Positions 1,678 through 10,592 of a stretch of DNA of 14,107 nucleotides are shown one piece after another. Source of the DNA: Chlorobiota bacterium (GTDB lineage: Bacteria; Bacteroidota; Ignavibacteria; Ignavibacteriales; Ignavibacteriaceae); assembly GCA_008363265.1 (NCBI GenBank), contig RHKR01000012.1:1-14107 (forward strand). Direction: 5' to 3'. The notes under the pieces were generated by a model. The model searched no databases, was not told the origin of the DNA, and was given only the letters and a program-made list of their open reading frames with translations. Within the stretch, counting starts at the first letter, position 1. Every line of letters begins with the position of its first letter. Position numbers and translations under genes: made by a program.

Positions 1678-1682
1678 TTCTT

Positions 1683-1710
1683 TAGTGGTTAACGGTTAGA
1701 GGTGAGTGGT
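1683..1710 (+). repeat. Heptamer repeat array, G-rich orientation (4 units)
   Basis: Four consecutive 7-bp units read TAGTGGT, TAACGGT, TAGAGGT and GAGTGGT. The consensus is TAGNGGT, with only one C in the whole array. The array is the approximate reverse complement of the units at 1854-1888. Comparing five units on each side gives 27 matches in 35 positions. Confidence 0.8.
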
Positions 1711-1751
1711 TAATTCTTCAAATACCTCTAACCAAAAGTAAAAAATTCTTT

Positions 1752-1811: not shown

Positions 1812-1888
1812 ACTCAACCTTTAAGACTCAACCACCTTCCGCTCAACCTCAGACCATTAACCTCTAACCACTAACCTCTAACCACTAT
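1812..1888 (+). repeat. Degenerate heptamer repeat array, C-rich orientation (11 units)
   Basis: The sequence divides into eleven 7-bp units with no change of register. The first three are ACTCAAC, CTTTAAG, ACTCAAC. The last six are CCTCAGA, CCATTAA, CCTCTAA, CCACTAA, CCTCTAA, CCACTAT, with consensus CCNCTAA. Only three G occur in 77 bases on this strand. The right half is inverted relative to 1683-1710, so a transcript through both could fold into a long imperfect hairpin. Confidence 0.8.
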
Positions 1889-3797: not shown

Positions 3798-3819
3798 AAA
3801 GGGCGGATAACCGCCCTTT
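3798..3819 (+). terminator. Hairpin terminator after the radical SAM gene
   Basis: AAAGGGCGG (3798-3806) and CCGCCCTTT (3811-3819) form a perfect 9-bp stem with the tetraloop ATAA, starting 1 nt after the stop codon. The T-tract is short and interrupted (TTTCATATTTC), so termination may be moderate. The right arm merges into the first unit of the next heptamer array. Confidence 0.75.
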
Positions 3820-3918
3820 CATATTTCATACCTCAAACTTCATACAACAGAATCGCAGCCCTCATCCTTCATCCTTGATTTTATCCCCCTAACATTTCAC
3901 ATTTCACATTTCACATTT
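3814..3918 (+). repeat. Degenerate heptamer repeat array (15 units) between the radical SAM gene and secA
   Basis: The stretch divides into fifteen 7-bp units in one register. It opens with CCCTTTC, ATATTTC, ATACCTC, AAACTTC. A middle pair is identical (CATCCTT twice, 3863-3876). It ends AACATTT, CACATTT, CACATTT, CACATTT (3891-3918). The unit drifts along the array but the period does not. The plus strand is again almost free of G. The array ends about 7 bp before the putative secA promoter element. Confidence 0.8.
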
Positions 3919-3920
3919 TA

Positions 3921-3943
3921 TAGCTAAATTTACAGGTTATAAT
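3921..3943 (+). promoter_or_regulatory. secA: Candidate secA promoter region
   Basis: Two overlapping readings are possible. TAAATTTA (3925-3932) resembles the Bacteroidota -7 element TAnnTTTG, and lies inside TAGCTAAATTTA, which recurs almost exactly before the lipoprotein gene. Alternatively TATAAT (3938-3943) is a perfect sigma-70 -10 box about 22 nt before the start codon. No clear -35 or -33 element is visible because the heptamer array occupies that position. Confidence 0.35.
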
Positions 3944-3965
3944 AAAATTTTGGAGCAGACCCTTA

Positions 3966-10522: not shown

Positions 10523-10592
10523 ACTAAACCCCAAACCCTAAACCCAATCCGCCGCAGGCGGACTCCACACTCTACACTCCACACTCAATCCC
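10523..10592 (+). repeat. Degenerate heptamer repeat array (10 units) running into the trmH-family stop codon
   Basis: Ten 7-bp units in one register. They begin ACTAAAC, CCCAAAC, CCTAAAC, CCAATCC, pass through GCCGCAG and GCGGACT, and end CCACACT, CTACACT, CCACACT, CAATCCC. The middle units contain the perfect stem TCCGCC/GGCGGA (10548-10562, loop GCA). The last unit overlaps the stop codon and final codons of the minus-strand methyltransferase gene. Confidence 0.75.

Follow-up and report, generated by a model that had tools for sequence, protein, structure and literature searches.

Heptanucleotide STRR repeats are a known feature of heterocystous cyanobacteria. The accessible part of Rehm et al. 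2015 (PMC4692102) mentions STRR for Calothrix and describes the G-rich heptamers of Xanthomonas and Nostoc, which are located on the antisense strand before ORFs or on the sense strand behind stop codons, overlap the stop codon in some cases and form inverted pairs in Xanthomonas. There the preference for four units is tied by the authors to the minimum of a G-quadruplex. Arrays of another heptamer, TAACTGA, are reported from Beggiatoaceae, Cyanobacteria and Bacteroidetes (MacGregor 2015, PMC4679880, accessible part).

The heptamer arrays described here are similar to the GGGAATC and GGGGA(C/T)T arrays of Xanthomonas and Nostoc in the period of 7, the intergenic location, the preference for four units and the inverted pairs, as well as in the outward direction of the C-poor, G-rich strand at both gene ends, the closeness to or overlap with the stop codon and the variation of the same gaps between close species (PMC4692102, accessible part). 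However, unlike in these systems, the words here are mostly without G-tracts, several word families occur per genome, each in one or a few species, the register begins in the stop codon, and gene starts are nearly free of arrays in this genus. With the TAACTGA arrays they have in common the 7-nt direct repeats between genes, the patchy distribution and the species-specific places; unlike the single TAACTGA word, found mostly just before starts in Beggiatoaceae (PMC4679880, accessible part), here many words lie mostly behind stops. For cyanobacterial STRR the comparison covered the period of the intergenic 7-nt units, which is alike. REP elements with their RAYT (Y1_Tnp) proteins are similarly short, dispersed and intergenic, and GC palindromes adjoin the arrays here; however, the RAYT-type genes that we read are flanked by other repeats, not by heptamers. 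Searches of an open-licence library listed no paper with lineage-specific heptamer families, or a register that starts in the stop codon, in its title or the beginning of its abstract.

The window (the whole stretch of 14,107 nucleotides) is contig C5 of the draft assembly G000 (3.44 Mb, 627 contigs). It was compared with G001, G002 and G003 of the same genus and with other genomes. Genes were called by us from ORFs with a hexamer score, and as plain long ORFs for loci of other phyla and for one further set. In the window a type IX sorting tail and SecA-, P-II-, RlmN- and QueG-like proteins were recognised; the KamA-family protein beside the array before secA has 71% identity to a protein from an Ignavibacteriales bacterium. 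Lag, array-finder, position and word-sharing counts are based on 41 G000 sequences, 11 of which (besides the window) were chosen for holding CACATTT; tract-end, GC-palindrome, gene-end and G-tract counts are based on 57, with 27 (besides the window) chosen in this way. Tiling of G002 and G003 started from two heptamer-matching places as centres and extended over about 260 and 300 kb. The two genomes have arrays in common by descent, so that their counts are not independent. Only the stretches of G010, G004 and G054 were spaced regardless of heptamer matches.

Composition of the gap before secA

The first-pass annotation had described positions 3814-3918 as one array of fifteen heptamers, free of register slips and with a gradually drifting unit. 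The 7-bp periodicity holds. Lag-7 identity is 0.592 versus 0.306 in dinucleotide shuffles, none of 2000 shuffles reaching this value, lags 5, 6, 8 and 9 are at or below expectation, and 7 of the 14 successive unit pairs match in at least 5 of 7 letters (shuffles: mean 0.53, maximum 5). The single array does not hold. Matches between successive claimed units are 4,5,5,4,2,1,5,7,3,0,2,6,7,7, and the claimed first unit, CCCTTTC, is mostly the tail of a terminator-like stem. CAT/CAA word starts are at 3820, 3834 and 3841 in the first block and then at 3863, 3870, 3898, 3905 and 3912; a 1-bp register slip separates the words at 3820-3847 from those at 3863-3876. The gap contains the following features:

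3798..3819, + strand: terminator-like stem-loop directly behind the KamA-family gene
3820..3847, + strand: older TCA-type heptamer tract (CATATTT, CATACCT, CAAACTT, CATACAA); this gap has like words in G002 and G003 but none in G001
3856..3876, + strand: block CAGCCCT CATCCTT CATCCTT, 1 bp out of phase with the preceding block; CAGCCCTCA also in G002
3877..3890, no strand: non-periodic stretch between tracts
3892..3918, − strand: four-unit AAATGTG-family tract (CACATTT on the + strand), specific to G000, with other sequence here in the three congeners
3919..3957, + strand: conserved block upstream of secA, kept in four species

Positions 3814-3918 are a composite of the terminator end, the older TCA-type tract, non-periodic stretches and a separate four-unit CACATTT tract. 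What was taken for gradual drift seems mostly to be layers of different age side by side, and the place next to secA differs in the congeners: G001, G002 and G003 have ACATTGTTATT in common before the conserved block, and G000 alone has the CACATTT tract there, with no gap in the alignment where the one stands against the other. The conserved block is probably the secA promoter region. We suggest that in the window the newer CACATTT tract may have replaced the ancestral sequence next to this block.

Two more arrays had been placed at 1812-1888 and 10523-10592. Both regions do hold periodic tracts. In the first, successive units match in 3,3,2,2,2,3,5,6,6,5 letters, hence it is periodic only in its last part (TRF 1845-1887); the second consists of two tracts separated by a palindrome. 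The tracts of these gaps are:

1682..1716, + strand: imperfect G-rich heptamers TTAGTGG TTAACGG TTAGAGG TGAGTGG TTAATTC, 4 nt behind a stop codon, missed by the array finder at its threshold
1845..1887, − strand: TTAGTGG/TTAGAGG-family tract (AACCTCT AACCACT on the + strand), inverted relative to the tract at 1682
10526..10545, − strand: AAACCCC/AAACCCT tract (TRF)
10548..10562, no strand: GC palindrome TCCGCCGCAGGCGGA between the two heptamer tracts
10562..10587, − strand: GTGTGGA/GTGTAGA tract, running out of the stop codon of a minus-strand methyltransferase-like gene

The inverted TTAGTGG-type pair at 1682-1716 and 1845-1887 lies in one gap of the window; a like pair is present in L055 (1736-1768 and 1869-1898).

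Period, position and strand of the arrays

Intergenic DNA has a lag-7 excess of 2.8% in G000 (z 7), 2.5% in G002 (z 6), 3.2% in G003 (z 10) and 1.9% in G010 (z 7), with lags 5 and 6 between -1.1 and 0.6% and lags 8 and 9 between 0.2 and 1.9%. In these four genomes lag 7 exceeds its neighbours 5, 6, 8 and 9, which is the outcome predicted for the lag test proposed in the first-pass annotation. The excess is weaker in G004 (1.4%, z 3), G001 (0.5%, z 1; 17 gaps) and G054 (-0.7%), and amounts to 1.3% (z 3) in a random G000 subset; lag 3 is above lag 7 in this subset (2.1%) and in G010 (2.6%). The 19 kb of G000 gaps hold 23 period-7 segments versus 0.0 in shuffles and 0 to 5 segments of each other period, except period 14 (18); 7 further period-7 segments lie inside called genes. 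One masked N stretch in G002 and one in G003 each add 1 per period to the period counts; they also appear in the array-finder list and were dropped from later counts. Perfect lag-7 runs of at least 9 number 42 in 90 kb of G002, G003 and G010 gaps versus 0.8 in shuffles. The short-run excess of the same gaps at lag 9 (64 versus 7.6) is attributed to nine-letter words (CGCAAAGAC-, CACGGATTT- and CACAGAGGA-like) recurring in gaps of G002 and G003, for example in L043 and L048.

Arrays were counted as oriented when, on the + strand, G outnumbers C in the left half of the gap or C outnumbers G in the right half. Such orientation is found for 89 of 104 arrays in gaps of G000, G002, G003 and G010, and for 63 of 76 without G000. 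A replication-strand bias is not needed here, since the orientation turns mid-gap in every gap. As the C-poor strand runs into the gap from either side, one could imagine that 3' ends at breaks receive templated G-rich heptamers from a reverse transcriptase of the telomerase or DRT10 type. DRT10, together with an ncRNA, produces tandem-repeat DNA (PMC12632851, accessible part), and reverse transcriptase domains are present in all four sampled genomes of the genus. However, the array-rich one-contig G010 has no RVT_1 match, though a very divergent enzyme could be missed, so that not every array-rich genome has a recognised reverse transcriptase; several words per genome would need several templates; and the one enzyme classified here is an RT-Cas1 fusion. 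We rejected this explanation on the G010 result and consider it extremely improbable.

The fusion is encoded at L124 2061-4400 (C354 of G000); its 779 aa comprise a reverse transcriptase part and a Cas1 part (PADLOC Cas1_IIIb and RT models). An AAATGTG tract lies behind the stop of this gene, and none behind its relative in L276 (C36 of G001).

Arrays are concentrated behind genes. Within 15 bp of a stop edge lie 62 of 104 arrays and within 15 bp of a start edge 6 (46 and 4 of 76 without G000), with the two types of gap edge about equally common (336 and 366). Behind stops, lag-7 identity falls from 0.373 over the first 15 nt to 0.271 at 90-150 nt, whereas all values before starts are between 0.29 and 0.32. 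Of 484 gene ends 73 have an array within 10 nt (44 of 340 when G000 is left out), compared with 7 of 523 gene starts, and the unit TAACTGA occurs in no array of the array-finder list. T9SS-like C-termini are over-represented at array ends (22 of 73 versus 37 of 411 others, G002 and G003 not being independent).

The 7-nt register of the arrays begins in the stop codon. In the 73 array ends, detected from the sequence behind the stop only, lag-7 identity rises from 0.26 at the last sense codon to 0.57 at the stop codon (0.35 in gene ends without array) and reaches 0.62-0.93 behind it; we note that C-poor words contain stop trinucleotides, so that the array may itself supply the stop. However, in 11 of 13 orthologous slots read the G002 and G003 proteins stop at the same residue. 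The idea that the stop codon is swapped along with the array was dropped, as the stop changes in 5 of 13 gene ends with array and in 20 of 56 without.

The position raises the question of a selected function at transcript ends, where selection would keep some 30 nt behind the stop C-poor and unstructured but leave the letters free to change, and the stretch would act in ribosome spacing before the terminator, as a protein binding site or as a source of spare stops. C content of the 30 nt behind stops is 0.039 in array ends versus 0.178 in others, and terminator-like stems begin later there (median 66 versus 36 nt). The slot, moreover, keeps an array while the word changes: the orthologous gene end before the L121 tract has AAATGTG in G000, GTTTGAA in G002 and GTATTAG in G003, and among 72 G002/G003 gene ends with room the array is in both genomes at 8, in one at 5 and in neither at 59. 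However, terminator-like stems are not commoner behind array ends (14 of 73 versus 71 of 411), arrays near starts have the same outward orientation, and G001 has an array at none of 29 sampled gene ends, unlike the three congeners, in what is a small sample. Stop trinucleotides inside arrays show no constraint (13 changes to another stop, 39 to a non-stop), and spare stops were rejected for this reason. C-rich Rho-type sites behind genes were also rejected, the RNA strand behind these stops being C-poor. Selection at transcript ends would explain the position and the C-poverty, but neither the arrays before starts nor their absence from G001, and taken as a whole we find it unlikely.

Word families, unit number and orthologous gaps

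The words form lineage-specific families. The 20-mer of AAATGTG (CACATTT) is found in G000 alone, at 27 places, and is absent from 58 other genomes, the three congeners among them (backward control 0). TTAGTGG is found at 10 places, in G000 only. GTATTAG is confined to G000 (5 places), G002 (5) and G003 (11); its tracts have from three to nine units, most often four (9 of 21). The units had been called unrelated, which is true between the three gaps of the window but not for the genome, where CACATTT and TTAGTGG recur; the statement that the arrays do not reflect the spread of one element is unsupported, as the families occupy many places of one genome. Units are identical in 8-16% of array pairs within species and in 9% between the close species G002 and G003; between the other species the share is 0.5-2% (null 0.6-1.1%).

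Four whole units are present in 74 of 143 arrays. At the AAATGTG places there are four perfect units in 19 of 27 cases, three in 8 and five in none; longer imperfect tracts (51-72 bp, 77-90% identity) exist at three places. Most of 31 aligned AAATGTG tracts end with AAATGTGA or AAATGTTA, several being followed by a GC palindrome, and of the 20 intergenic GC palindromes in the G000 set 10 have an array no more than 25 bp away.

A tract with a fixed end beside GC palindromes brings to mind a mobile mini-element moved by a protein, for example by a RAYT-type Y1_Tnp, which moves REP palindromes. Y1_Tnp genes are present in 11 of 12 genomes searched, and the exception with no match, G001, is also the genome without arrays at its 29 gene ends. 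However, Y1_Tnp is found also in the array-poor G004 and G054; the 11 Y1_Tnp genes read are flanked by other repeats, with no heptamer array in the 90 nt preceding or the 110 nt following any of them, and 4 of the 11 have an array anywhere in the 2-kb piece. Terminal inverted repeats of a mini-transposon were rejected too: paired arrays of one gap are complementary in 5 of 11 cases versus 149 of 486 between gaps, which is not beyond background. With RAYT rejected on its occurrence in array-poor genomes and on its other flanking repeats, movement by such a protein is very improbable.

The Y1_Tnp (RAYT-type) genes in L283, L284, L285, L286, L287 and L288 have short palindromic flanks, such as CCCATATGTCGCCCTAAAGGGC or GGCCCCG..GGGGTCAAGTATGGGTAG, and like palindromic repeats fill parts of other G002 and G003 gaps.

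In orthologous gaps some arrays are kept and others not. The 75 gaps of G002 and G003 give 28 array rows (one gap may count from both sides). The array is retained in 14 of these rows, in 2 more with an indel and in 2 in part, and is missing or replaced in 10. The expectation that gap lengths change by multiples of 7 failed: in 21 orthologous gaps compared, 3 of 20 non-zero differences are divisible by 7 (-21, 7 and 98), about as by chance.

These counts bear on local replication slippage alone, in which a duplication that arose by chance is extended on the spot into a tract, the polymerase favours steps of 7 nt and gene ends do no more than tolerate the product. Long repeats were reportedly surveyed by Mrazek and others in 2007. 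That heptamers are the commonest long repeats, and that 7 nt may correspond to the polymerase contact, is given second-hand in the accessible parts of PMC4679880 and PMC4692102. The period of 7 holds across many words, and the secA gap differs by 21 bp, that is by three units, between two congeners, both as slippage would have it. However, a lineage-specific family at 27 places, the lack of any AAATGTG place with five perfect units in spite of the longer imperfect tracts, the enrichment of arrays at stops over the rest of the gaps and the few length differences divisible by 7 disagree with it. Slippage explains the period, but not the families, and as the only process it is unlikely.

Spread or rewriting would explain the families; the test by shared variant order is negative overall. 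Sharing of variant-unit order versus the mean of permuted units is 7 versus 4.1 in G000, 3 versus 1.2 in G002, 1 versus 2.1 in G003 and 13 versus 16.0 in G010, and copying of mosaic arrays was rejected on these numbers. Two G010 loci (L072 8722 and L074 2684) have one 29-bp array in common, with the same two variant units.

There are two further observations. A 98-bp module of heptamer array and terminator-like stem is present twice in tandem in G003 (C3 tiles 203633-203911, L048 3633-3911) and once in G002. The sequences CCTCACCCC..CCCCTCTCC and GGAGAGGGG..GGGGTGAGG (G003 C3 tiles 60807-61143 and 102780-103164; L025 294-474) resemble, by eye only, the intrastrand triplex motif in the accessible part of PMC4666352.

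Outside the genus, at least 119 stretches with the 24-mer of TGAATTA were found, and 80 of them were used; among the taxa in the titles of these are Bacteroidota, Cyanobacteria, Chloroflexota, Desulfobacterales, Lentisphaerae, Ruminococcus and Treponema. The orientation is followed by 80 of 118 arrays of these 80 loci, and by 52 of 69 lying within 20 nt of a gene edge (24 of 28 at starts, 28 of 41 at stops). The preference for stops is weak here (41 arrays near stops and 28 near starts within 20 nt), and was dropped as a general rule. A Nostoc sample has lag 7 at z 11, 15 period-7 segments and 11 of 14 arrays oriented, so the parallel drawn earlier with cyanobacterial heptamers was apt. An Anaerolineae sample has the strongest lag-7 excess seen, 5.7% (z 15), and orientation fails there as a universal rule (14 of 28). 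Most arrays of this sample form inverted pairs, separated by short loops, within small gaps (L259 19167-19221, L263 12219-12267, L265 4415-4484).

Possible origin and meaning of the arrays

We tentatively suggest a mixed origin, with birth by 7-nt duplication and lineage-specific spread or rewriting at gene ends, and would give it somewhat less than an even chance. A tract would be born by tandem duplication of 7 nt and would then stay at about four units. The current word of the lineage might be copied to other gene ends, or rewritten there, via short templated synthesis (template switching or gene conversion). Tracts would be kept mainly from the stop codon outward, presumably the first place where new letters are harmless, and would be oriented with the C-poor strand leading out of the gene. 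Against this mixed origin, copying of whole tracts is unsupported overall, the sharing of variant order being negative, one array row in two is simply retained in the orthologous gaps (14 of 28), gene ends with and without an array are alike in stop-codon change, and the orientation fails for the Anaerolineae arrays.

We also consider, as quite improbable, that gene ends are re-writable slots, at which the older word is erased and the current C-poor word put in, outward from the stop, by some activity that proceeds in 7-nt steps and goes through some four cycles. If this were true, the slot would persist while its letters are replaced.

The layout resembles that of the published heptamers, but the G-quadruplex explanation does not fit. 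That account needs four G-tracts (PMC4692102, accessible part). Among the 143 arrays, 91 are without any GG, at least four GG tracts are present in 23 and GGG in 13; AAATGTG of the window has single G only, and arrays without GG still peak at four units (44 of 91, by rounding). The same layout in words without a G-tract points to a cause elsewhere: in the stop codon, in the C-poverty of the strand or in the step of 7 nt. With the word families being lineage-specific, the spread of a repeat of about 27 bp to dozens of gene ends becomes testable in strain collections.
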